A stretch of DNA of 45,161 nt, from contig JAMOTN010000026.1 in assembly GCA_027062325.1 (NCBI GenBank), positions 1 through 45,161 on the forward strand, in the 5' to 3' direction. A program made the translations under genes and the position numbers. Shown piece by piece: positions 16,634 to 32,103 of the stretch. Numbering within the stretch: the stretch's first letter is position 1; each line of letters opens with the position of its first letter. The DNA comes from a bacterium. Its GTDB lineage: Bacteria > JAMOTN01. A model generated the notes under the pieces. That model saw only the letters and a list, made by a program, of their open reading frames with translations, was not told the DNA's origin and did not search any database.

Positions 16634-17791
16634 TTAAAACTTGTATTCGATTCCTCCTATCCATTGAAAGTCATAGCCAAACTCTTGATCGTTGGTTATT
16701 GTTATAGGAAATGCACAAGAAATTGACAAGTCATCTCTTATTCTGGTTTTAAAACTTGGAATGACTTCCAACTTGTCTCCATAGTTTCCCCAGTTCTCTC
16801 CATAAATTTCTAAACCAAGTGTAAGAGTTGGGGTCTTGGTGTATTCAACGCCAAATCCATATATAAACTTGTCGTCGATGTTCAAAGTGCTGCCATCTGC
16901 AAGTGTTGGATCTCCCGTGAATACGTATCTTGCATTGAACATTACCTTTGAAGCTTTGAAGTTTTGCTCATATGCTGCGTATATTTCAAAGTCGGGTTCA
17001 CCTGTCACTCCATTTACTGCTAGCTTGTCTTCGTCCCCTGTAGCAAATTTTATTCCAAGACCTAGTGCAATTTTTGCATCCCTGGAGGAGTTTTGAGAAG
17101 CAAGGGTGTACTTTGTTCGTAAGAAGACGTCTCCAAGCCCGGATTCATCACCATTTGGAACTAGTCTTGGTGTGTCTATCTTCCACTTTTCGTAAGGGAA
17201 TGAGATGGACACTTCAAAGTTTTCAAAGGGAGATGTGGTGAATATGTAGTAGATATGCATTTGATCAGCTTTCTCATCTGTAGAGAGGTCGACATCGTCA
17301 CCTTTGTAGGTGTCTATTTTATTGTAGGCAATAAATGATGAGAGCATGTAAGTTTTTGTTGGTACGCATGAAGCAGATAAAATTTTGGATAGACCACTTC
17401 CTGCTACAATTGTGCTTCCTATGATATGGGTTGATTTTTCACTACTTATTATCTCTTCTGCACTTTTTCTTTTGGCTCTTTTTTCTGAGACTTTGCCGGT
17501 TACAACTCCGTCTTCATCTTCAAATAGTTCTTGAAGATAAGGAGCGACTTCATCTACCTGCTCCTGGAGTTCTTTTTTCTGGACGTCTTCCTTCTTGGGG
17601 AGCTTTATATCAGGATAAAGTTCACTTGCTTTTTTTAATTTCTTAACGGTTTCATTCTGTTGATTGTTGGCTCGGACCTCCTTAATTATTTCTGGGGAAA
17701 AGCCTTCTAGAGGATCAACACTTGCTCCCATCAGAGTTATTGTGAATATCAACATACTAATTGCCAAAATTTTAATAGAACTCCTTATCAT
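16634..17791 (-). CDS. Outer-membrane beta-barrel protein
   Basis: A 385-residue exported protein. An N-terminal signal peptide (IKILAISMLIFTITLMGAS) is followed by about 100 charged residues that look helical (EVRANNQQNETVKKLKKAS to EEIISSEKS). The C-terminal 260 residues are amphipathic beta strands: FEVSISFPYEKWKI, AKIALGLGIKFATGDEDK, KFIYGFGVEYTKTPTLTLGLE and a terminal GGIEYKF. The final Phe is the signal read by the BAM machinery, which supports an outer membrane. The closest pattern I know is the transporter-like family represented by Phenol_MetA_deg. GAGGAGG is eight bases before ATG 17791; a GTG at 17800 abuts it and is less likely. It heads the operon with the sigma/anti-sigma pair. 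Confidence 0.75.
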   Translation of the reverse strand: MIRSSIKILAISMLIFTITLMGASVDPLEGFSPEIIKEVRANNQQNETVKKLKKASELYPDIKLPKKEDVQKKELQEQVDEVAPYLQELFEDEDGVVTGKVSEKRAKRKSAEEIISSEKSTHIIGSTIVAGSGLSKILSASCVPTKTYMLSSFIAYNKIDTYKGDDVDLSTDEKADQMHIYYIFTTSPFENFEVSISFPYEKWKIDTPRLVPNGDESGLGDVFLRTKYTLASQNSSRDAKIALGLGIKFATGDEDKLAVNGVTGEPDFEIYAAYEQNFKASKVMFNARYVFTGDPTLADGSTLNIDDKFIYGFGVEYTKTPTLTLGLEIYGENWGNYGDKLEVIPSFKTRIRDDLSISCAFPITITNDQEFGYDFQWIGGIEYKF

Positions 17792-17880
17792 AACTAGCAC
17801 CTCCTCAAATCTTTTTCGGCTCTCTTTAGGTTTTTTCTTATACTTTAAATAAAGGAGGATAAGAAGAGGAGCTGAGTGAA

Positions 17881-20034
17881 GTGAAAAAAAGTTTAAGAAG
17901 AATAAAGAGTTATCGCGGTTTTGCTGCGATAGTTTTAGCTATAATTGTTGTATTGCTTGTCTCGGTTTGGTTTATGACTTATAACCAATTGGTTAGAGAT
18001 AAATATTACCTGTACAAGAGAGAAGCAGAGCGTTTCAGAGCTTTCATGTTTGTAAAAGCTGTAAATGTTGCGTTTTGGGATGGAGTTAGGTCTGTTATTG
18101 CTCAGGGAAATGATGATTTTCGCGAATTTTTGAAGGTGTTTAAAGGAGATTACAGCTGGCTTGAGAACAAGTATAGGGCAACGTTGATTACATTGGCAGA
18201 AGCTATGGGGGAAGGAGATAAGGTAAGTTTGAAGGATTTTTCGGTTGATACTAAGAGTTCTCAAATTGGAGCTGATAAAAAGATAGGTATTTCTTCAAAG
18301 GAGATGTATGGAGAGATAATACTTCATGTGAAAGTTAAGTTTGGAAGTACCAAGGTCACGGTGAGTGAGAAAAAATATTTTAGGTTTATCAATATATTAC
18401 CACCTGTTGGGAAGTTTACGTTGTTTGTTAAAAATGCGTTGGGGAGTACAGGAGGAGAATTTTTTGATTTTAACAATGTCAAGTTGAAAAAATGTGATTC
18501 TTCAAACTGTGGAGTTATTGATTCAGGAAGCATTTTGACATGTTTTAATGCTTCTTCGCCAGATGTATACTTTGATGAGGAGCCATGGCATGAGACTGGA
18601 TGGATATATCTTGGGGAGAGAAATGGACGATTCACCAATGTTATTTTGAATATGGGAGATGATTTAGAATATGGAGAAATTGGATTTTGGTACCTTCTAG
18701 ATATTTTGAAGGCTAGAAAGCATGGTAAATATGCTGTAGAGAAGTTGATAAAGACATTTAGGAGTAAAAGTGAGTTTAACAGTTTTGAAGAGAGGAGTAT
18801 AACGCTACCTAAAAATGAGTTACCACCTGCCTGGAGGAACGTTGCTGGATTTGATGTAAGTGTGTACATGAATTTTGTTGGTTTTTCTAAAGAAAGTAGA
18901 AGAATAGAAGAGTCTAGCTTGTTTAAAAAGATGCTTGGAAGGAGTGCCCCTTCTAGTAAAGATGATTATGAGGTTTCCTCTTCAATACTGTTATTTGGGA
19001 ATCCTTTAAATCCAACACCTACTAGATTGTTCGGTAGTTATAAGATGAGATTTTTCAGATTTTCGTTTGTGAGTGCTACTCCACGTGGAGGTGGTATGAG
19101 TGGCGCTGCAGGCATTTCTTATGACGAAAGCAAGAAGTTAATAGATGTTGGTTTAAAGGCTTTGAAAAATTTTAATTTTGATTCCTTCAAAAGTGCATTG
19201 AGTAGAGATTGGTTTGAAAAGTTGAGGAGTGCTTGTTTGAAGGTTGACTACAATAATCTCTGGTATCAAATAGTTCCTGTTTTAAGAGGAACAGTTAAAA
19301 ATAAATACGTTGTAGGTTGGGGAGATAAAATTAAAAAGAGTGTTAAGTTGCCACCATCGGGGCCTAGTGCTATGCGTTATCAAGTAAAACATGGAAGTGA
19401 GGTTGTATTGGATGTTGATGTTAGAAATTTTGATTTTATAAGGGCCTATAAAAAGAAGGTAGTTTGGAAGATAAAGGATTTAAATGGAAATGGAAGAGTT
19501 GATGATGAGTTTGCGCTATTTTGTCTTAAAGAAGATGAAAAAGGTCATCTAGTTTTGAAACTTTGGGGAGGAATAGTTGAATTTGAGCCAACTGGAAGAC
19601 GCCCGCTTGTTTTACCTAAAGGATGGCGGCCGTTTGTTGGTAAGAACGATACAGATGTTATGACTTATGGGGGAGTACTGGTGGCTCCTCGAGTTGTGGT
19701 TTACGATACGTTGCAGGATTCAAATCTTATAAAAGCGCCCTTCGCTATCCAAGCTGATAAGATTCTTTTCAAAGATGTGACGTTTTTGCCGGCTTATGTT
19801 TTAGCTGACAAGCTTTATTTTAATCCTAAAAAATTTGTCTCAGTTTATGGAGGGGTGGCTTGTACTCGTATGATTGAGGCTGGGGAGAGAGATAATCCTT
19901 CTAAACTCATGAAAATTCCAAATATGTCTATCTATTGGAATAGGATTTACAACATAGAAAATGAGCAAATATACAATAGTGGTATGAGGTTGTTTTTTAG
20001 CAAAACTACTTACACTTGGATAGGGGATAAATAA
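17881..20034 (+). CDS. Large PilX/GspK-like pilin-type protein
   Basis: A 717-residue protein starting MKKSLRRIKSYRGFAAIVL. The basic leader ending in Gly, then Phe and a 20-residue hydrophobic helix, is a class III prepilin-peptidase site. The fifth mature residue is Val, not Glu, as in PilX and GspK, which cap pseudopili or pili. Most of the long extracytoplasmic part is unrecognised. It includes DLNGNGRVDDE at residues 533-543, which resembles a calcium-binding loop, and a few scattered cysteines. The start is GTG 17881, nine bases after AGGAG. Two classical prepilin genes follow on the same strand, so the three probably form one minor-pilin or pseudopilin complex. No secretion ATPase or pilin peptidase is nearby. 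Confidence 0.65.
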   Translation: MKKSLRRIKSYRGFAAIVLAIIVVLLVSVWFMTYNQLVRDKYYLYKREAERFRAFMFVKAVNVAFWDGVRSVIAQGNDDFREFLKVFKGDYSWLENKYRATLITLAEAMGEGDKVSLKDFSVDTKSSQIGADKKIGISSKEMYGEIILHVKVKFGSTKVTVSEKKYFRFINILPPVGKFTLFVKNALGSTGGEFFDFNNVKLKKCDSSNCGVIDSGSILTCFNASSPDVYFDEEPWHETGWIYLGERNGRFTNVILNMGDDLEYGEIGFWYLLDILKARKHGKYAVEKLIKTFRSKSEFNSFEERSITLPKNELPPAWRNVAGFDVSVYMNFVGFSKESRRIEESSLFKKMLGRSAPSSKDDYEVSSSILLFGNPLNPTPTRLFGSYKMRFFRFSFVSATPRGGGMSGAAGISYDESKKLIDVGLKALKNFNFDSFKSALSRDWFEKLRSACLKVDYNNLWYQIVPVLRGTVKNKYVVGWGDKIKKSVKLPPSGPSAMRYQVKHGSEVVLDVDVRNFDFIRAYKKKVVWKIKDLNGNGRVDDEFALFCLKEDEKGHLVLKLWGGIVEFEPTGRRPLVLPKGWRPFVGKNDTDVMTYGGVLVAPRVVVYDTLQDSNLIKAPFAIQADKILFKDVTFLPAYVLADKLYFNPKKFVSVYGGVACTRMIEAGERDNPSKLMKIPNMSIYWNRIYNIENEQIYNSGMRLFFSKTTYTWIGDK

Positions 20035-20063
20035 AAGCTAAAGGCTAATAAGAGGTGTTGGAA

Positions 20064-20537
20064 ATGTTGGATGCTGAAAAACGAGCGTTTACTATACCTG
20101 AGGTTGTAATTGCTATACTTGCTATAGCTTTAGTGGTGTTGCCTGCCCAGTATCTGTTTTCTACTACTACAAAGCTTACAGTAAAACCAAAGTATCAGTC
20201 TATTGCGCTTTTGATGTTGGCTGATATTCAGGAGTTATTGATGATAAGTACAACTGTTGCTTACAAAGGTAAGATGTTGAGTGATGATTATTTTTCTAGT
20301 GGAGTTGAGCTGAGTTTGGAAGAGTTTAAAAAGGCTTTTGATGTAAAGTTTCCGGATTTTTCAATGTATCCTGCTCCACCAGGAGGGTATAAGATAAAAT
20401 TCACCCTTCTCAAAGCTGAGTCCTTCGGAGTTGTTGTACCGTGTATAGTTGTTGAAATATCTTGGCAGGAGGGTAAAAAATGCAAAGAAGTAAAGACAGT
20501 TGTTCCAGCCGTGGTTTCACCTTGGCAGAAGTTATAA
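20064..20537 (+). CDS. Type IV prepilin-like protein (PilV/GspI-like)
   Basis: 157 residues. The short leader MLDAEKRA ends at the cleavage site A|FTIPE, with Ala rather than Gly before the cut. It is followed by the conserved Glu5 and a hydrophobic helix (VVIAILAIALVVLPAQYLF) that packs in the pilus core. The C-terminal domain is short, with one cysteine-containing strand pair (VVPCIVVEISWQEGKKC). Best fit is a minor pilin of the PilV or GspI kind. The frame runs back to GTG 20055, but AGAGGTG (20051-20057) is placed for ATG 20064. Its last 58 bases overlap the next pilin gene. Confidence 0.75.
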   Translation: MLDAEKRAFTIPEVVIAILAIALVVLPAQYLFSTTTKLTVKPKYQSIALLMLADIQELLMISTTVAYKGKMLSDDYFSSGVELSLEEFKKAFDVKFPDFSMYPAPPGGYKIKFTLLKAESFGVVVPCIVVEISWQEGKKCKEVKTVVPAVVSPWQKL

Positions 20538-21061
20538 TTGCTCTTGCGATTTTGAGTGTGGTTTTTGCTATAGCTTCAAAGTTTATGTTTGGTAAGAGGG
20601 GGGTTTATAAGGGAATAGAAGAGGGAGAGGCTAGAATGAAAGTTTATGCTGATGTTGGTAGAATTTTGTTCATACTAAAGCGTGATTTTATGAGTGTTTC
20701 TGGTGAACCTAAATTTGATGATAAGGAGCAGATTTTAGAGTTACCGATAGGGTTATCTGAGAAGGTTGTGTATCAATTTGGAGATAAAGTGAAGAGAGAA
20801 GTTGTTGGAGGGAAAGTTAGTTACTTTCCAGTTAAGTTGAGTATTTCTGATTTTAAAGTTAAAAAAGAGGGATTGGCTTTTCAGATAGTGAAGCCCGGTG
20901 GTAGGCGAGCTCCTTATAAAGGGGCTTTTATGTACAGGATATATGCCACTTTTTCTGTTGATGTTAAGGGAAAAAATGTTAAGGTGCCGTTTGTATCTAC
21001 TCCTTATACATTGAATACGATGGTTACGGATTGTTTCAATACTGGGGGAAATGGCAGTTAG
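20480..21061 (+). CDS. Type IV prepilin-like protein (PilW/GspJ-like)
   Basis: 193 residues with a canonical class III leader: MQRSKDSCSSRG|FTLAEVIIALAIL, including Gly before the cut and Glu5. The body is mostly beta strands with a short loop region rich in Pro and Gly (IVKPGGRRAPYKGAF) and ends with a cysteine (VTDCFNTGG). Size and position after the PilV/GspI-like gene suggest a PilW/GspJ-type minor pilin. AGGAGGG is five bases before ATG 20480, inside the preceding gene, so both frames are real despite the 58-base overlap. It converges on flgI with a 38-base gap. Confidence 0.8.
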   Translation: MQRSKDSCSSRGFTLAEVIIALAILSVVFAIASKFMFGKRGVYKGIEEGEARMKVYADVGRILFILKRDFMSVSGEPKFDDKEQILELPIGLSEKVVYQFGDKVKREVVGGKVSYFPVKLSISDFKVKKEGLAFQIVKPGGRRAPYKGAFMYRIYATFSVDVKGKNVKVPFVSTPYTLNTMVTDCFNTGGNGS

Positions 21062-21099: not shown

Positions 21100-22104
21100 T
21101 TATATGGTTTTTAATTTTGCTTTGAGTACACCTGCTGCTTTAAGAGCCTGTAGTATAGCAATAATATCACGGGCTTTTAGGTTTAAGTTATTCAGAAGCT
21201 TTACCAAATCAGAGACTGTAGTTGATTTCATCTCAAAGGCACTGTTTGTTTTGTTTCCAATTCTAACAGTTATTTGATTGTGAGTTACAACTGCAGGAAG
21301 AATTTTTACATCTCCTCCCATTACTACAGTTGCAGTTTTTTCGTTTATAACTACCGTTGGAATAGGACTGATATCTACAGTTTCTGAAAGAAGGGAAGCT
21401 ACGAATGCTACTGGATTATCCAAATAGAAGTCAGGAATCTTTACTTTGATACTACCTGCGTCCAATGGATGAGCAATGTCAAGGCCAAATTTTGCATTTA
21501 TCTTGTCGCATATCTTTTGCACAGTTTCAAAGTCTTTGTCCTCCACTGAGAATGTTATACTGTCTTTGTTTGCAAGTTTTACTGGAACTTCTTTTTGGAC
21601 GATTGCACCTTGAGGAACGCGAGCACTGGTTTCGTGATTTTTTTGACCACCACCGGCTAATCCTGCATTGAAACCGCCTATTGATACGGGACCTTGAGCA
21701 ACTGCGTAAACTTTTCCGTCAGCGCCGAGTAAAGGTGTCATTAAAAGATAGCCCCCTTGAAGGCTTTTTGCATCTGCAATTGATGAAACTTCAACATCTA
21801 TTTTGTCACCACGTTTTGCAAAAGGAGGTAAGGTTGCGGTTACAACTACGGCAGCACAGTTTTTGGCCTGTAACATTGAAGTATCTACAGTTATACCAAG
21901 TTTCCTTAGCATGTTTACAACACTTTGAGAGGCTACAGTGGAACGATCTCCTGTTCCAGCAAGGCCCACTACTATTCCATAACCTATAAGTTGATTCTCT
22001 ATGACGTCCACAGGTCGCAATATTTCCTTTAAAGAGACCTCTTCTGCTGAAATTGTGAATGCGAGTAAGGTAAGAAAAACGGATAATAATTTTCTGCGCC
22101 CCAT
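21100..22104 (-). CDS. flgI: Flagellar P-ring protein FlgI
   Basis: Forms the P-ring, the peptidoglycan-level bushing around the flagellar rod. 334 residues with a Sec signal peptide (MGRRKLLSVFLTLLAFTISA). The signature follows: VENQLIGYGIVVGLAGTGD, NMLRKLGITVD, NCAAVVVTATLPPFAKRGD, SLQGGYLLMTPLLGADGKVYAVAQGP, IGGFNAG, and near the C-terminus VVMGGDVKILPAVVTH. A purine-rich ribosome binding site (GAGGGGAGAGGA) precedes ATG 22104. It is last in flgA-flgH-flgI, the standard set for the outer rings, and implies an outer membrane. Confidence 0.98.
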   Translation of the reverse strand: MGRRKLLSVFLTLLAFTISAEEVSLKEILRPVDVIENQLIGYGIVVGLAGTGDRSTVASQSVVNMLRKLGITVDTSMLQAKNCAAVVVTATLPPFAKRGDKIDVEVSSIADAKSLQGGYLLMTPLLGADGKVYAVAQGPVSIGGFNAGLAGGGQKNHETSARVPQGAIVQKEVPVKLANKDSITFSVEDKDFETVQKICDKINAKFGLDIAHPLDAGSIKVKIPDFYLDNPVAFVASLLSETVDISPIPTVVINEKTATVVMGGDVKILPAVVTHNQITVRIGNKTNSAFEMKSTTVSDLVKLLNNLNLKARDIIAILQALKAAGVLKAKLKTI

Positions 22105-23666: not shown

Positions 23667-23736
23667 AATGTTAAAATTTGGGGTAGAGTGTATAGTTTTG
23701 TGTGTAATTTTAAACATAGGGAGAGGGGATAAATTT

Positions 23737-26700
23737 ATGGGTGATATGCGAAAGGCACTTGTGCTTTACAAGGAAGCTAAAGAGCTAAAAGAAAAAGGAG
23801 AGTATGAAAAGGCTAAAAGTCTGGTTGAACAGGTTAATGTTTTTTACGAACCTTTGATTTGTTTAAAAAAGGATATATATCATTCTTTGACTATGTATAG
23901 TGAATACATAGCAACTTTAGAGGAACTCATAGATGCTTCGAAGGATCGCGAGGTTTATTTAACTGAGTGGGCTGAATTTTTTGTGACTGTGCTTCGAGAA
24001 GATTTTGAAGTTGTTCCCCTATTTGTGAAAGAGTTAAAAAAAGAGTTGGATACCTCTTCTAAACTCGGGCCTATGCTCAGATTATTCGGAGTTTACGCCT
24101 TTATCCTGCCTCGACTGGATCCTGATAGAGCTGTTGAATCTTTGTCTCACGCTAGAATGCTTGCTAAGAAAATACAGGGGGAGTTTCCATCTGATTGGAT
24201 TGGTTGGTGGGCTGAGAAGGTTGTTATGGAGAAGTTGTTTGATCTTGGATTCGCGACGGCTGATGAAATAGTTGCAGTTTTGGAAGAGGCAAAAGGATCT
24301 TTTAAAAAGGTTAAGATGGAGCTTATAAACATATACTGGAAGACTTCTAGCATAGATAAATTGAAAGATATGGCTGCTGGATTGAAGGATGAAATGCGCA
24401 TTTTAGCTGAGGGTTTGATTGCCATACATGAGAAACGTTGGGGGGAGGCTGTGGAAAGATTTTCCTCAATTGAAGTTCCGGCTTTTGCTAAGTATGATTA
24501 CTTTGTGGCACTTTATAGGAGTGGTTTTTGGCAAGAAGCAAAAAGAGTTAGTGGTGAGGTTAAGTGGAGTAGGGATAGTATACACGAGTATGTGGAGTTT
24601 GCTTCTGAGTATGGAGAGGAGGCTAAGAAAGAGTTACTGGCTAGATATTCTGGATGGATAAATAGTAATCCTTACTATATGTACAGGTTGGGTGAAGAAC
24701 TTCCATATTTAAATTCTCTTGTATATAAAAAGGAGTTCAAAGTTGCATCTTTTTTGGCTCAACAAGCTGGTTTTTCAAGTGAATGGGTGAGGTTACCTCA
24801 GGTTTTGGAAAGTGCGATAAGAAGTAAGGATGTAAGTTTGTTGTTTAATGAGTTTTCTGATATTGAAAGAGATTGGCAGTGCTTAGTTTTAGCTTTAAAA
24901 GTTTTGAAAGCGGAGTTTGCGGATCTGATCCTTTCGCGTATTCAAGATTGGGATAAGGTTAATTGGAGACTTAAAGAAGAGATAGCGGCGACTAAATTAG
25001 AACATGGTGATATTGTTTTGCTAGATGAATTGTTAAAAGATAAACCAGCTAGTAAGTGGGGATTGCTTGCAAAAGCAATAGCTACTGGTAACTTGACTTA
25101 CTTTGAGGAGGCAGAGGAATATGCTAATCCTCAAGATACTGAGTTTTACAAAGTAGCCCTTAAGTGGCTAAAGAGCATTGATCTAGAAAGGGCTGTTGAT
25201 ATAGCTGAGAGAATTTACTTGGCTTCTAAGGTTGATATAGAATTTGTGAGGTTGTTTGCACAACTTTTAAAAGAGGCAAAGCTTTGGGAAAAAATAGAGA
25301 TCTACTTTGCGGATAATCACGATGTATACATACGTATGTTTTATGCAGTTGCTTTGATGAACATGAACAAAATGGATGAGCTTAAAAAGATACTGGAAGA
25401 GTTGCCGACAACTCAGCCAATATATTGGTACATAAAAGCAGAAATTGAAAAAGTAGAGGAGCTAAAATTAGAAAACTACTGGAAGGCTTACAACCTTGGT
25501 CTTAGAGATGAAGAGTTTATTTTGAAATTTACCTACGTGCTTTACAATAACGGCTTTTATCAGGAAGCAGTGAAGATTTTAGAAGAGTCATTGGATGTTG
25601 AGAACAATGTGAAGGCGTTGAAAATATATGCACTGTGCATTTATGCCATCGGTGATAAAGACAAATTTAAATACTATGCCTCTAAGGTTGCGGAAAAAAT
25701 AAAGGAGAAAGAAGTTTTAAAATTGCTACTCAAGGTATATTTAGAAGACGAGGCTTATCAGGTTGCGCTCGATTATGCTAATAAGCTTTCCACTATTCCT
25801 GAGCTTGATGTTGAGGCTTATCTTTTGATAGCCAAAGCTTATTGGTTATCTGAGAAGCTAGAAGAGGCGGAAAAATGGATAGATGTTGCTCTTGAAAAGG
25901 GATGTGAAAGTGATGAGTGTCTAGAGGTGGCAGCAGATATTAAGTATAGGTTGAGTAAATATGAAGAGGCAAGCATTATTTATGAGGAGTTGAGTAATCG
26001 TCATCCGGAGGTAACTGCCTATTTAAAGAGGTATGCAGAGTGTATGTTGGCTCTTGGAAAAGAGGAAGAGGCACTCAGATATTTAGAGGCTGCTTTCGAT
26101 ATAGATCCCGCAGATATTGATGTTGTAAGTGTGCTTACAGAGCTTTTGGAAGGAAAAGGAAATTGGCAACGACTTGTTGAGATAATGACTGAGGTTGTTG
26201 GAATATACCCTGAGGATATTGACTTTCGCAATAAATTGGCGGAGGCTTTGGAAAATACTGGCCAGCTTGATAAGGCTATTTCTCAATGGAGATGGTTGTG
26301 GGAAAAGACTTCTCAACTTAAGTATCTTGTACGCTTAGGAAAAGCTTACCTTAAAGGAGCCAAATTTGATGAGGCTCTTGAGTGCTTCAATCAGGTTTTA
26401 GAAAGGGAGCCTAATAACTTGGAAGTATTGGCAGAGATGGGGAAAATGGAGCTTCACCGGGGGAATATTACCAAAGCAAAGGAGTATTTTAAAAAGGTGC
26501 TTGATTTAGATCCAACTAACACCGTCGCAATGTATGAGCTTGCGAAGATTTACAAGACCATAGGAATGATTGATGAAGCGGTGGAGATTCTTGAACGTTT
26601 GAGAGGTAAAGTTTCTGGAAGTGATAAGGTGGATGTTTTAAAAGAGCTTGCAAATCTTTATAGATTAAATGGGAAGTATGATGAGGCAGTTGCAGTATTG

Positions 26701-29700
26701 CGTGAGTTAGCTGAAGAGCATCCAGAGGAAGAGATTCTATTTTTGCTTGGAAAAACCTATCTTGAAATGGAGGAGTATGATAAAGCACTTGAGTATTTGC
26801 AAAAAGTTACTTCTCTCAATATGAGGGCAAATTACTTGTTTGAATTGGGAAGAGCTTACTATCATCTTAAAAAATACGATGAGGCGGCAGAGGTTTTGCT
26901 ACAGGTTCTAGCTGTGGATCCAGATTACTACGATGTGTATGCCTTGCTTGGAAAGGTGTATGAAGCGAAAGGAAACATGGAGGAAGCAGAGAGAATATAT
27001 GAGAAGGCTTTAAAAGTTGATGAGGATTATCAGCTCTTAGTTGCTTGCGCGCGGGTTAAGAGACGTCTTGGAAAGTTGGAAGAGGCTAAAAATTATTACT
27101 TGAAGGCTTTTTGGCAGAATCCTGCTAATCAAGAGGTAATGTTTGATCTATTGAAAGTTTTGGATGAAATGAAAGATTGGGATACGGCTTTGAAAGTTGT
27201 TGAACAGGCTATAGAAACGTTGCCTCGCAGTCCGTTGCTCCGCTATCTTGCGGGTGTTTATTCGCTGCGCTTAGGGGATACGAAGGGGGCTTATCAGTAC
27301 TTGAAAGAGGCGGTTAATTTAAATCCAGAGTATGTGGATGCGCTTTACGAGTTAGGACGCATAGCTTTAGAAGAGGGAAGACTCGTTGTGGCAAAGGAGT
27401 ATGTTGAAAGAATTCTTAAGATATTTCCAAGTAGTGGAAAAGCTCATTGGTTAAAAGCTCAGATTTTAGAAAAAGAGGGTAACAAGATTGCTCTGATAGA
27501 AGAATTAAAACAGGTTGTGAGATTGGAGCCTTCTATAATAGAAGCAAAGAAAAAGCTTGGATTTCTATATGAGGAGAGTGGTTTGCTGTCTGAAGCTGCT
27601 AGGTTATTGGAGGAGTACTGGCAACTTAGTCAAGACAGAGATGTTGCTTTGAAGTTGGCAGAGATTCATCAAAAACTTGGTAATTATGAGAGGGCGGAGT
27701 ATTATTTAGAGGTTGCCAAGAATTTTGATGAGGAGAGCGAAGAGTACAATTACAAGATGGCAAAAATGTACTTTGAGCGTCAGGATTACTCAGTAGCGTA
27801 TGAGTATGCTACAAAAGTTTGGCAGATAGCAGGAGATGAAGGCATAGTTAATAAGGGATTCTTTGGTGAGATTTTGAGAATATTAATGGTTAGTGCGTAT
27901 GCACTTGCAAAGTTTGATGAAGTTTATCAGCTTGGTAAGAGGTTTTTTGATCAAATAGTGGATAATAGGGATTTGTTGTTAAGGTACATGGAATCAGCTT
28001 ACAAGGTTGGAGATAATTCTGAGTTTTCGAGGGCTGCTATCCACTACTTTGAAAAATTTGAGGATGAAGAAAGAGCTTTGGATGTTGCAATGCGATTAAT
28101 AGAGCTGAATATGTTTGAACAGGCTTCTCAGGTGCTCAAAGAGTACAATTCGTCGCAAGCGAGAGTTTTGAGAATATATGCTCTTTGGAAAATGGGAGAG
28201 AGACAAGAGGCAAAGCATGAGATGATGTCTCTTCAAAAGGTTGTTTACTTGGATAAAATAGCTGAAATCATTGTTGAAAGTGAAGATCCGGAGCTTTACA
28301 AACGTTTTGCTAAGGTGTTTGAAGTGGCAAAAAATGCTGAAGTTTTGGAGTTAATTGCTCCGTTTGCTGAAAGAATGGGAGATGTTAAGAGGGCTTATAT
28401 TATGTATAAAAAGTTGGCTGAACATAAGCCATTTTACCTTGTAAAAGCCATAGAGACTGCAGAGCGCCTGGGTTTGGATGATGATGTAGTTCTATTGAAG
28501 AAAAAATTGATGGACGTGTCAACTGATGATCCATCTGTAAAGCTAGAGTTGGCGTCTCTCTATATAAACTCTGGAAAGGAAGATGAGGCAGCCTCCATTT
28601 TAAACACTGTTGAGTTTGATGGCTTGTCTGTGGAAGAAAAGCTGCGTTTGGCAAAAATGTTAGTTAAGTTAAAACTCTATGAAAAAGCTTTGGAAGTTGT
28701 TGATAGTATTTCGGATGATGAATACGAAGTGGTTAAAGAAAAATTGTCTTTGTTAAAGAGTGTGGATATTGAATTAGCAGTTGAATATGCACAAAAGATG
28801 CTGGAAAAATATCCAGATTTGGCTGAAGAGCTGGTAATTCTCTACATTGAGTTGGGAGATGTGAGGAGTGCTTTAGAATATGCTGAGTTTGTTAAGAATG
28901 AGGAAATAAATACTTTACTTGAAGCTATAAGAGGAGTGGAAGAGGATCCTGTTTCGGCTGCGGAGGTTTTGAAAAAGTACTACAGGGGAAATAATCTGTT
29001 GAGTTATTACTATGCTCTTTCACTGTACAAGCAGGGGAAGTATGACGAGGCAATTGAAGTTTTGGAAAAGTTGCCGGAGAAGGATAAGCGCGTTTCTTTA
29101 CTCCTTGCGCGTGTATATGCTGCTAAAGAAGATAAGGTTCAATCCTACAAGTGGCTTGATTATCACAGAGATGAGACAGATCCTGAGTGGCTGATAGTGG
29201 CGGGGGAGGTTCACAGCAAGTTTGGAGATTTGACCGAGGCTGCTAATTACTTCTCCCAAGTGGAAGAATTTGTGGAAGGAAAGGTTGAGTTGTATGAGTC
29301 TATAGCAATTGCGTTGTGGAACGTTGGGCAGTTTGACAAGGCGTTTGGTTACCTTAAGGTGGCAATGCGAGAGGAAAAGCTGACTCATACCGGTATGAGA
29401 TATCTTTTAATAGCGGCTTTGGCAGAAGTTGATAATTACCTATTTGAAAGTGTTGCGGAGAAGCTAATAGAGGGGAATTGGGAAGATAAACTTTTAGTTG
29501 CAAAGTTGAGTGCAGTCAAAGGTGAATATGAGTCGGCAATGGAACTTTTGGAAGAAGTTTTGAGACTTCAAAATAGAAATGTGAATGTGGCTATAGATGC
29601 TGCTTTTGTATATATGGGAGTTGGCATGCTTGATAGGGCTCAAGAGATAGTGGATTCGTGGCTTGGGGTTGAAGAGAACGAAAAGCTTATGGTATTAAAA

Positions 29701-32103
29701 GCTTTAATAGCAGCAAAGAGAGGAGATATTGCTCAGGCTAAGGCTTATGCTGATAAGATGATTGAGAAGTTCAAAAATATAACCGCTTATATGATGCTTC
29801 CAGAGATTTATTACGAGATGGGGATGTACGATCAGGCGGTAGCTGAGCTGAAAAAGTTAGAGCAAGAGTCTTCTGATGATAGAATAAAGCTTGCACTTGC
29901 TAAAACATACGTAAGACTTGCAGAGAAAATGGGAGAAGAGATGTTTATTGAGGAGGCTGAGAAAAAACTTGCTGAAGTTGTCAATAAAGATCATATGCTT
30001 TACAGCTTTATAAAAGCTGAGATTGCATTCTACAAAAATGACATAGAAGAAGCTGTGCGTTCCTACAAAATAGCGGTTTACAAACAGCCATTTAGCTTTG
30101 AATGTTATACCAAGTACATGGAAGTGCGTAATATATGGTTTGAGAAGAAAGTTGAGGAAAGGCTTAATTCTGCTCGAGTATTTTTAGATAAGGGTCTTGT
30201 TGAGAGCGCAAAACTTGAGTTGGAAGAGGTTTTGAAGATTGATCCTAATAACTTTACAGCAAATCTTGAGTTAGCCAAGATCTTGATAAAGGAGAATGCT
30301 CTTGAGGAAGCACTTGAACACTTAGAAAGGTGTGTTAGTTCAAATCCTGCAGCTGTTGAGGTTCGTCTTGAGTATGCGAAATTGCTGTTTAAACAAGGGA
30401 AGTTTGACAAGTCGCTTGAAGAAGTGGAAGAAGTGCTTGGACTTGATCCTACGAATGCTCAAGCGCGTCTTTTACAAGCTAAGTGCTATGAAGAGCTTGG
30501 GAGACTTGATGAAGCAGTTGAGGCTTATGAAAGTGCTGTAAGGCTTGATGGTACCCTTGTTGAGGCAGCTTTGAAAGTGGCGCGTTATTACTCGGAAAAA
30601 GGAGAAATTGAGGAAGCAAGAAAGTATTACAACATTGTATTGGCTAATGAACCGAATAACAGGGAGGCTCTAGATTGGTTGGCAAAGGTTCAGCGTTCTG
30701 AAATAGAAGAGAAGCTTACAGAGCACTTTGAAGCTGCTAGAAAATTTGAGGAAGAGGGAGAGTTGAGTAAAGCACTTTTAGAATACGAAGCAGTTGTTGA
30801 TATAGATCCGACAAATATTGAAGCACGTGAGAAGATGGCTACCATATTTGAGCAGCAGGAAGAGTACAATCAGGCAGCTTTCGAGTACGAAAGAGCTTTT
30901 GAAAATAGCGAAGGTGAGAAGAAGGTTTACTTTGCAAAGAAGATTGTTACTTCCTCTAGTAGAGCATTTGATCATGCAAGGGCAAGCCAATATTTGAAGT
31001 GGTTGTATCAAAATACGGATCTAGATTTTGCTTTCAGAGCGGCTTGGATATCAGAAATTGTAAAAGCAGCTTTTGCTGCTCCAAAAGTTGCTGCTCCAAA
31101 TTACGATGATTTGATTTCATTGTTAAAAGAAAAGGTTTCTTCTGATTCGAGCTACAATTATGATTTAGGGTATCTAATGGCCTATCTACCTACCTATACT
31201 GTTTCTGAAGATGAGATTAGAAGCAAAGGAATACATCATCTTAGGATGGTTGAAGATAAAAGAGAAGCAAAGCTTGCCCTTGCTGATGCTCTGCGTCGTG
31301 AAGAAAACTTTGATGAAGCTTTACAGATATTGGAAGAGATGTCTGAAGAAGAGGAAATATTGGTTTTAAAAGCGCATGTACTTGAAACTATGGGAGAATT
31401 CGTAAAGGCTCAGGAAGTTTATGAAAAGTTATACACTGAATATGTAGATCCAGCTTATCTTGAGAAGAAAACTAAGCTTTTAAAATACACAGTTGATCAA
31501 AATGAAAGAGAAAAGCTATTCAGACAGCAGAAGGCAAAGCTGGGAATGAAAGTTAAGAAAAATATGGAAGATCCGCTTATTCTTTTAGAATACTGTTTAA
31601 CCCTTCTTGCTCTAGCTCCTCTTATCCTTGATGAGGAGGATGTGTCCACGATAGAAGGTTATTTAAAGCAAGCAATATCTTTGGAGCCTGAGCTTAAAGA
31701 GGCATACTTTGCTTTGCGAGATTTGTATCAGCGTGAGGCTTTGAGTGGACGCAGAAAATACGAAGATGCCATGAGTATTATGTTAAAAATTGCTGAAAAG
31801 TTCAAAAATGATGCTAGAGTTAAACTTGAGCTTGGAAATACTTACAACGAGAATATAGAAAGAAATGCCAAAAACGAAGCTATAGATGCTTACAGAGAAG
31901 CTTTAAAGATAGAGCCTAACTACATAGATGCTCGTTTTAAGTTGGCAGGAGTTTACAGAATAAAGGGAATGGTTGAGGAGGCTAAGGAAGAGTATGAAAA
32001 GGTCTTAGAGATTGATCCGGCTTCTCGTTTAGCAAAAGAGGCACGCAATGCAATTGTGCACATTGAGAAGTCGCTGTCTGGTATGGATGACATAGAGTTG
32101 TAG
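23737..32103 (+). CDS. Giant tetratricopeptide-repeat protein (2788 residues)
   Basis: The largest gene in the window. The whole protein appears to be a helical TPR array: A/G/Y-rich helix pairs with the usual spacing of about 34 residues. The best repeats are at about 870-1000 (YFKKVLDLDPTNTVAMYELA), 1045-1095, 2146-2318 (LEEVLKIDPNNFTANLELA) and near the C-terminus. The part from about 1400 to 2080 is more degenerate. It has no signal peptide, membrane helix or enzymatic motif that I can see and is acidic, so it is probably a cytoplasmic scaffold. The frame extends to ATG 23668, but GGAGAGGGG is placed for ATG 23737. Function unknown; it is divergent from flgAHI and precedes rimO. Confidence 0.88.
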   Translation: MGDMRKALVLYKEAKELKEKGEYEKAKSLVEQVNVFYEPLICLKKDIYHSLTMYSEYIATLEELIDASKDREVYLTEWAEFFVTVLREDFEVVPLFVKELKKELDTSSKLGPMLRLFGVYAFILPRLDPDRAVESLSHARMLAKKIQGEFPSDWIGWWAEKVVMEKLFDLGFATADEIVAVLEEAKGSFKKVKMELINIYWKTSSIDKLKDMAAGLKDEMRILAEGLIAIHEKRWGEAVERFSSIEVPAFAKYDYFVALYRSGFWQEAKRVSGEVKWSRDSIHEYVEFASEYGEEAKKELLARYSGWINSNPYYMYRLGEELPYLNSLVYKKEFKVASFLAQQAGFSSEWVRLPQVLESAIRSKDVSLLFNEFSDIERDWQCLVLALKVLKAEFADLILSRIQDWDKVNWRLKEEIAATKLEHGDIVLLDELLKDKPASKWGLLAKAIATGNLTYFEEAEEYANPQDTEFYKVALKWLKSIDLERAVDIAERIYLASKVDIEFVRLFAQLLKEAKLWEKIEIYFADNHDVYIRMFYAVALMNMNKMDELKKILEELPTTQPIYWYIKAEIEKVEELKLENYWKAYNLGLRDEEFILKFTYVLYNNGFYQEAVKILEESLDVENNVKALKIYALCIYAIGDKDKFKYYASKVAEKIKEKEVLKLLLKVYLEDEAYQVALDYANKLSTIPELDVEAYLLIAKAYWLSEKLEEAEKWIDVALEKGCESDECLEVAADIKYRLSKYEEASIIYEELSNRHPEVTAYLKRYAECMLALGKEEEALRYLEAAFDIDPADIDVVSVLTELLEGKGNWQRLVEIMTEVVGIYPEDIDFRNKLAEALENTGQLDKAISQWRWLWEKTSQLKYLVRLGKAYLKGAKFDEALECFNQVLEREPNNLEVLAEMGKMELHRGNITKAKEYFKKVLDLDPTNTVAMYELAKIYKTIGMIDEAVEILERLRGKVSGSDKVDVLKELANLYRLNGKYDEAVAVLRELAEEHPEEEILFLLGKTYLEMEEYDKALEYLQKVTSLNMRANYLFELGRAYYHLKKYDEAAEVLLQVLAVDPDYYDVYALLGKVYEAKGNMEEAERIYEKALKVDEDYQLLVACARVKRRLGKLEEAKNYYLKAFWQNPANQEVMFDLLKVLDEMKDWDTALKVVEQAIETLPRSPLLRYLAGVYSLRLGDTKGAYQYLKEAVNLNPEYVDALYELGRIALEEGRLVVAKEYVERILKIFPSSGKAHWLKAQILEKEGNKIALIEELKQVVRLEPSIIEAKKKLGFLYEESGLLSEAARLLEEYWQLSQDRDVALKLAEIHQKLGNYERAEYYLEVAKNFDEESEEYNYKMAKMYFERQDYSVAYEYATKVWQIAGDEGIVNKGFFGEILRILMVSAYALAKFDEVYQLGKRFFDQIVDNRDLLLRYMESAYKVGDNSEFSRAAIHYFEKFEDEERALDVAMRLIELNMFEQASQVLKEYNSSQARVLRIYALWKMGERQEAKHEMMSLQKVVYLDKIAEIIVESEDPELYKRFAKVFEVAKNAEVLELIAPFAERMGDVKRAYIMYKKLAEHKPFYLVKAIETAERLGLDDDVVLLKKKLMDVSTDDPSVKLELASLYINSGKEDEAASILNTVEFDGLSVEEKLRLAKMLVKLKLYEKALEVVDSISDDEYEVVKEKLSLLKSVDIELAVEYAQKMLEKYPDLAEELVILYIELGDVRSALEYAEFVKNEEINTLLEAIRGVEEDPVSAAEVLKKYYRGNNLLSYYYALSLYKQGKYDEAIEVLEKLPEKDKRVSLLLARVYAAKEDKVQSYKWLDYHRDETDPEWLIVAGEVHSKFGDLTEAANYFSQVEEFVEGKVELYESIAIALWNVGQFDKAFGYLKVAMREEKLTHTGMRYLLIAALAEVDNYLFESVAEKLIEGNWEDKLLVAKLSAVKGEYESAMELLEEVLRLQNRNVNVAIDAAFVYMGVGMLDRAQEIVDSWLGVEENEKLMVLKALIAAKRGDIAQAKAYADKMIEKFKNITAYMMLPEIYYEMGMYDQAVAELKKLEQESSDDRIKLALAKTYVRLAEKMGEEMFIEEAEKKLAEVVNKDHMLYSFIKAEIAFYKNDIEEAVRSYKIAVYKQPFSFECYTKYMEVRNIWFEKKVEERLNSARVFLDKGLVESAKLELEEVLKIDPNNFTANLELAKILIKENALEEALEHLERCVSSNPAAVEVRLEYAKLLFKQGKFDKSLEEVEEVLGLDPTNAQARLLQAKCYEELGRLDEAVEAYESAVRLDGTLVEAALKVARYYSEKGEIEEARKYYNIVLANEPNNREALDWLAKVQRSEIEEKLTEHFEAARKFEEEGELSKALLEYEAVVDIDPTNIEAREKMATIFEQQEEYNQAAFEYERAFENSEGEKKVYFAKKIVTSSSRAFDHARASQYLKWLYQNTDLDFAFRAAWISEIVKAAFAAPKVAAPNYDDLISLLKEKVSSDSSYNYDLGYLMAYLPTYTVSEDEIRSKGIHHLRMVEDKREAKLALADALRREENFDEALQILEEMSEEEEILVLKAHVLETMGEFVKAQEVYEKLYTEYVDPAYLEKKTKLLKYTVDQNEREKLFRQQKAKLGMKVKKNMEDPLILLEYCLTLLALAPLILDEEDVSTIEGYLKQAISLEPELKEAYFALRDLYQREALSGRRKYEDAMSIMLKIAEKFKNDARVKLELGNTYNENIERNAKNEAIDAYREALKIEPNYIDARFKLAGVYRIKGMVEEAKEEYEKVLEIDPASRLAKEARNAIVHIEKSLSGMDDIEL

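Follow-up and report, generated by a model that had tools for sequence, protein, structure and literature searches.

Introduction

Minor pilins of type 4 filaments are described as forming a tip complex, capped by a subunit without the glutamate at position 5 of the mature protein (Glu5), which starts and tips the filament (PMC10191384), and GspK, like PilX, is reported to lack this residue (PMC7541494). Modular pilins, in which a pilin module carries a bulky grafted one, are reported to be common (PMC8179133). In the current study we analyzed positions 17881-21061 of contig JAMOTN010000026.1, a bacterial stretch of 45,161 nucleotides (hereafter the window; contig C26 in a draft genome of 1.65 Mb with 83.9% completeness), where three adjacent genes encode a 717-residue Glu5-less pilin (K717) and two prepilins (I160 and J193). 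Our results indicate that this trio is probably the tip complex of a type 4 filament, with K717 as a GspK/PilX-like cap that would act with I- and J-type partners in initiating and tipping the filament, and the same gene order was found with giant caps in another phylum.

The trio resembles GspI-GspJ-GspK and PilV-PilW-PilX in that a Glu5-less K-type pilin is encoded together with an I-type and a J-type prepilin, but it differs in that K comes first, the set holds no H/FimU subunit, and the K protein, at 717 residues, is much larger than pilins usually are and is matched by no family model of GspK or PilX. ComZ of Thermus thermophilus likewise joins a very large additional domain to a GspK-like pilin, has a neighbouring partner pilin and has been argued to sit at the tip (PMC6561018), whereas the solenoid and DNA binding are features of ComZ itself and K717 had no match to a solved chain beyond chance. 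Modular pilins such as PilB and PilC of Streptococcus sanguinis (PMC8179133) share with K717 the graft of a bulky module on a pilin module, although the head of K717 matches no known module and the N_methyl model misses K717. With the PilY1/PilC tip adhesin, K717 has in common a possible role at the tip and a loop D-x-N-x-N-G-x-x-D near the PilY1 consensus (PMC8833165), but one loop residue differs and K717 is itself a pilin, without a PF05567 domain.

Composition of the K717 trio

Three open reading frames (ORFs) on the + strand fill the region in the order K-I-J; all are intact and tightly packed, with a 20-nt gap between K717 and I160 and an overlap of 58 nt between I160 and J193. Their features are as follows.

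17881..20034, + strand: K717, giant Glu5-less pilin, putative GspK/PilX-like cap; 717 residues, GTG start; predicted mature from F14; match to a foreign profile at E 1.2e-6; no Pfam or NCBIfam family
17881..17919, + strand: class III-type leader of K717, MKKSLRRIKSYRG; predicted cleavage after G13; Val at mature +5, read from the sequence
17920..18450, + strand: pilin-like N-domain of K717, residues 14-190; ends in the junction ILPPVGKFTLFVKNA, common to giants of another phylum
18451..20031, + strand: grafted head of K717, residues ~191-717; no known family; residues 621-666 form three strands in a low-confidence model
19477..19509, + strand: DLNGNGRVDDE, residues 533-543 of K717; possible calcium loop D-x-N-x-N-G-x-x-D
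20055..20537, + strand: I160, Glu5 prepilin of I/PilV type; 160 residues, GTG start; predicted cleavage A11|F12
20480..21061, + strand: J193, Glu5 prepilin, J/PilW type by position; 193 residues, ATG start; predicted cleavage G12|F13

The sequence-only reading of this DNA had described a PilX/GspK-like protein of 717 residues without Glu5 together with two normal prepilins, and this description was borne out. The class III leader and a hydrophobic N-terminal helix are present in K717 (MKKSLRRIKSYRG|F...), and with the cleavage predicted at G13|F14 the residue at mature +5 is Val18, while I160 and J193 carry Glu16 and Glu17 at this position. I160 falls just under the cut-off of the NCBIfam model IV_pilin_GFxxxE (15.1 vs 16.3) and matches the PilV model at E 0.00078, under the cut-off of that model; J193 scores 31.8 bits with Pfam N_methyl, above the cut-off of 21.2, and matches the GspJ model at E 0.0099, again under the model's cut-off, so that their assignment as I and J types rests on weak model scores and on position.

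No family was matched by K717 as a whole in Pfam (up to E 0.1; the best match of its pieces, 0.06, was at chance level) or in NCBIfam (up to E 1), and PHROGs gave one match at E 0.25; a known family with another role, which the sequence-only reading had considered, did not emerge from Pfam or NCBIfam. The N_methyl model missed the Glu5-less pilins of this genome, in the case of K717 probably because Glu5 is absent, and such pilins were therefore sought by context and profile. Full-length homologs of K717 were found neither in GTDB contigs (searched with peptide patterns), viral contigs and plasmids nor in 58 other genomes, all related to the genome of the window at the level of domain only, with no phylum-level relative among them.

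Putative giant caps and K-I-J order in another phylum

A profile of the N-domains of three giants, K717 included (A3), was run on 290 genomes and returned giant frames in two of them (G118 and G256), reaching E 0.05 or better in 15 genomes, its own genome included, mostly as weak matches to part of the domain. On contig C57 of G118, one strand reads pilC, pilB (confirmed by Pfam), a tetratricopeptide repeat gene and x228, and the other strand a lipoprotein-like gene, K846, I147 and J210. With K846 alone as query, 36 of the 39 genomes of that phylum were matched at E <= 0.001: a single frame covered at least 90% of the query in 20 of these (G118 itself included), the match was in pieces in three, and it was confined to the N-terminal part in 13. 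No relatives of K846 were found in viral contigs.

The neighbourhood was examined at 21 loci, with K recovered at 20 (at L113 it was lost to a longer spurious frame) and 18 contigs extending past K (L084 and L105 end just after it). A Glu5 prepilin directly follows K on the same strand in all 18 loci that extend past it, and a second one comes next in 17 of the 18; such conservation speaks for a shared function maintained by selection. Matches to both pilB and pilC lie near K at 13 of the 21 loci; of the others, some contigs end too early and others lack these genes. Position +5 of the mature K protein was L, M, I or V in all 19 foreign loci parsed (L108 was left out), and Glu in none. The suggestion that the trio is specific to its lineage was thus overturned by the finding of giant K proteins in K-I-J order in another phylum, where pilB and pilC are frequent neighbours.

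The kinship of K717 with these giants lies in the N-domain. A profile of nine foreign N-domains, searched against the ORFs of the genome of the window, ranked K690 (4.7e-9), K717 (1.2e-6), K826 (8.4e-5) and K188 (0.003) ahead of the first protein that is not a Glu5-less pilin (0.21), and the best of 3330 shuffled ORF decoys reached 0.04; with the helix left out, K717 scored 1.5e-6 and K690 1.1e-4, while K826 was unsupported (0.28). A second profile drew on 19 of 30 K846-type loci; those omitted were fragments or weaker relatives, or had an incorrect frame as their longest. Among 334 ORFs of the genome it gave K690 1.2e-6, K826 0.0018 and K717 0.003, the next scoring 1.3; the K717 match spans residues 137-205, outside the membrane helix, and without the helix K717 was the best match (0.0011; next 0.09). 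The junction that closes the domain is also common to both sides, as ILPPVGKFTLFVKNA in K717 and YVPPFNFFTLFVKDA in K846. K717 combines the features by which giant K proteins were recognised, namely the N-domain profile match, the junction PP..(K/F/Y)FTLFVK(N/D) and a length above 600 residues, and more distant giants (K826, those of contigs C44 and C81, and those of G256) show the junction in looser forms.

An N-domain profile containing sequences of the genome of the window (A4) matched 97 of 386 genomes; not all of these have the giant-K family, given that most of the matches listed cover only the first ~60 positions, a generic Glu5-less helix. Among the matches listed, those to the whole domain came from the genome of the window and from G118, G256 and G323, the latter three of one phylum. 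In G256 (contig C25, locus L071, 2629-10654), three giant Glu5-less pilins of 672, 689 and 743 residues stand in a row in an apparent tandem expansion, with a 450-residue gene between the first two and a 398-residue gene ahead of them.

Pilus machinery and other putative caps in the same genome

Searches with N_methyl, T2SSE, Peptidase_A24, T2SSF and Secretin placed only J193 on the contig of the window, confirming that no pilus machinery lies nearby. Elsewhere in the genome a prepilin peptidase, on whose presence the sequence-only reading had made its case depend, was found once, together with three PilC-type (T2SSF) proteins with six domain matches, three secretins and 24 N_methyl matches. 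Seven T2SSE matches, six of them over the cut-off, represent PilB/T-type ATPases, a count uncertain by one, as the ends of contigs C22 and C64 each hold a different part of a T2SSE ATPase, possibly at an assembly break.

On contig C23, the Glu5-less K826 (826 residues) is followed by a 259-residue protein and by I-type (163 residues) and J-type (205 residues) prepilins, ~6 kb from a gene row reading pilM, pilN, pilO, pilP and secretin (pilM and the secretin confirmed by Pfam; pilN, pilO and pilP assigned by position and length only). A solitary Glu5-less giant, K690, lies on C44 (656 residues from the chosen start, 690 from the first start codon). Small Glu5-less pilins were found on C16 (K188) and C66 (K189), and there is likely one on C56. 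The trio is therefore orphan by position but not in a wider sense, considering the machinery, the two solitary giants and the second K-(x)-I-J set near the pilM-to-secretin cluster, and it is a closed set at its locus but not within the genome.

Three other loci of this genome are recorded here as separate observations. A solitary 866-residue Glu5-less giant on C81 (L147, 1363-4433; 0.052 with the 19-relative profile and 1.8e-11 with A4) lies behind a small lipoprotein-like gene, and such a gene precedes the giant in the other phylum too. On C63 (L018, 738-3268), a 700-residue prepilin that keeps Glu5, oversized and of J type by position, stands behind a 138-residue I-type prepilin. On C43 (L027, 3403-6733), a 208-residue prepilin is followed by a protein of at least 900 residues, cut by the contig end, which carries a legume-lectin domain (PF18483, E 3e-34) and DUF2341 and is a candidate adhesin.

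A doubtful alternative is that the trio forms the GspI-GspJ-GspK tip of a type II secretion pseudopilus, the K head binding or gating secreted proteins rather than outside surfaces. The several ATPase, platform and secretin genes mean that a system of this kind may be present in the genome, and GspK-type caps are reported to bind calcium and to top the pseudopilus (PMC6211770). Against this, K717 has no T2SSK/GspK family match, the second K-(x)-I-J set lies ~6 kb from a pilM-to-secretin cluster, and trios of the other phylum stand near pilB and pilC at 13 of 21 loci, although genes of pilB and pilC type alone do not separate a pilus from type II secretion.

Proposed mechanism and evidence against it

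The results presented here comprise the gene trio and its motifs, the absence of Glu5 from K717, machinery at other places in the genome, N-domain homology to giants of another phylum and the conserved K-I-J order. From these we infer for the K717 trio that its products would form a complex, where in a filament that complex would sit, which filament it would cap and what task the head would have. The leader of K717 would be cut by the prepilin peptidase of the genome, after which its N-terminal helix and small pilin domain would dock on I160 and J193. Lacking Glu5, K717 would take no subunit above itself, so that the K-I-J complex would start assembly and end at the filament tip, where the ~500-residue head would be displayed outside as a receptor or adhesin, as proposed by analogy with ComZ of Thermus and modular pilins; in this analogy the head would most likely be the binding end of the filament. 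The composition of the trio, as the sequence-only reading had proposed, corresponds to that of a minor-pilin tip complex (PMC10191384, PMC7541494).

Several results weigh against a tip complex. The trio is not adjacent to machinery in its own genome, and that genome is 84% complete. K717 matched neither PilX_N (PF14341) nor T2SSK (PF03934) with residues 1-170 at a Pfam E-value up to 10, nor NCBIfam GspK up to E 1, nor N_methyl. At default settings phmmer found no paralog of K717 in the genome, and the score of K717 against K826 comes mostly from the helix, 17 of 1000 shuffles doing as well as the soluble parts. J193 is not among the best 12 matches of the foreign J family, its soluble part scoring E 1.2. 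I160 matched the I-family profile of the other phylum at E 8.9e-8 and rank 5 among the ORFs of the genome, and I160 and J193 are thus of the same general types as the foreign I and J proteins without being their one-to-one best matches. The helix-free nine-domain profile also matched a sigma factor at 0.0011 and a decoy at 0.0063, against 1.5e-6 for K717. K717 was part of the profile that first picked out G118 and G256, which leaves the homology statistics partly dependent on it; separate support for the kinship of K717 comes from the conserved order of the genes.

The head belongs on the same side of the balance. No meaningful match to residues ~191-717 was obtained in Pfam, NCBIfam, PHROGs or solved chains, profiles built from the middle, the C-terminal part and the tail of foreign giants missed it, and pairwise C-terminal comparisons with five relatives gave z of 3.5, -0.8, 2.8, 3.2 and 6.2. 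AlphaFold without an alignment reached a confidence (predicted local distance difference test, pLDDT) of 31 when all of K717 was modelled and of 35 when residues 480-717 were.

The head and calcium-type loop of K717

In the AlphaFold model, residues 4-46, helical from 7, are almost the sole part with pLDDT of at least 50. The pairwise comparisons are a hint of C-terminal likeness to the foreign giants; homology of the heads was considered, the tails of several looking alike by eye, and was dropped when profiles gave no support. Searched by sequence against solved chains, K717, K826 and the C44 giant gave chance-level matches only.

A role of the head as DNA receptor in a competence pilus, on the pattern of ComZ and with a beta-solenoid grafted on a GspK-like pilin, is rather improbable. 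ComZ is described as a DNA-binding, GspK-like pilin with a ~380-residue beta-solenoid and a neighbouring partner pilin (PMC6561018), and in K717 the C-terminal model places three strands at 17-20-residue spacing in residues 621-666, with a computed isoelectric point of 9.4 for the mature form; but pLDDT is ~50 at these strands and 35 overall, and the one match to a solved chain was at chance level. That the trio is a decayed or repurposed set, whose prepilin-like products would be processed but would remain in the envelope or make no filament tip, is very unlikely, for although the window lacks machinery and two other giants of the genome have no adjacent I or J gene, the three frames are intact and tightly packed and the K-I-J order is conserved in another phylum.

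The motif DLNGNGRVDDE at residues 533-543 was confirmed. Within it, DLNGNGRVD fits the PilY1 calcium-loop consensus Dx[DN]xDGxxD (PMC8833165) save at the fifth place, where Asn stands for Asp. When K717 was shuffled 5000 times, the strict pattern D.[DN].[DN]G..[DN] arose in 0.2% of cases, and of 333 ORFs scanned one, K717 itself, contains it; a looser pattern was found in 15% of shuffles. Calcium binding by this loop is plausible because GspK-type caps, which sit atop the pseudopilus, bind calcium (PMC6211770). As a feature of the family the loop was ruled out: a comparison with 36 other pilins showed the full pattern in none and the first half, D.[DN].[DN]G, in three (L088, L103 and K874 with DINGDGETT), and the C81 giant, checked apart from these, is without the pattern. 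The likeness to calcium loops of pilus tip proteins stands with one substitution, and the idea of calcium binding is possible but weak. At another K-I-J set of the other phylum (L069, G118:C134, 2898-6604), the giant K protein has DINGDGETTRAE, an EF-hand-like loop.

Significance of the putative giant caps

What a type 4 filament binds is set by its tip. As a tentative suggestion, giant Glu5-less cap pilins may be an unrecognised family of at least two phyla that bears the tip receptor on the cap itself, not on a separate PilY1, and filaments could take interchangeable tips; the genome of the window has four giants and smaller Glu5-less caps, alongside three platform proteins of PilC type and a single prepilin peptidase. 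No description of such a family was found in the literature on giant caps, mostly outside subscription journals. The concept of exchangeable tips is itself not new, because exchangeable tip sets have already been proposed for Myxococcus xanthus (PMC7541494). An argument that the giant cap replaces PilY1, based on the absence of PF05567, was dropped: this domain was found in none of the 39 genomes of the other phylum nor in the genome of the window, and the control search matched one genome, below the cut-off, in the test of the genome of the window and none in that of the other phylum, so that absence is not established.

As K826, K690 and K846 matched no Pfam or NCBIfam model either, annotation pipelines are likely to overlook giant caps. 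In deep lineages, the conserved operon of a giant cap and its I and J partners offers defined targets for studying how filaments gain new binding heads, and it also allows one to ask whether PilY1 can be replaced by a cap that is itself a pilin.

Neighbouring genes

A scan for promoters and terminators gave no signal above shuffles, and FlgI, used to probe GTDB contigs for a similar neighbourhood, led to no confirmed relative. Two genes flank the trio and lie outside it:

21100..22104, - strand: flgI, flagellar P-ring protein, convergent neighbour
16634..17800, - strand: Phenol_MetA_deg match, probable outer-membrane barrel, divergent neighbour

Further unrelated neighbours include an extracytoplasmic function (ECF) sigma factor and its zinc-finger partner, and positions 23668-32103 of the window encode a 2811-residue protein with repeats throughout, judged by eye to be of tetratricopeptide type.

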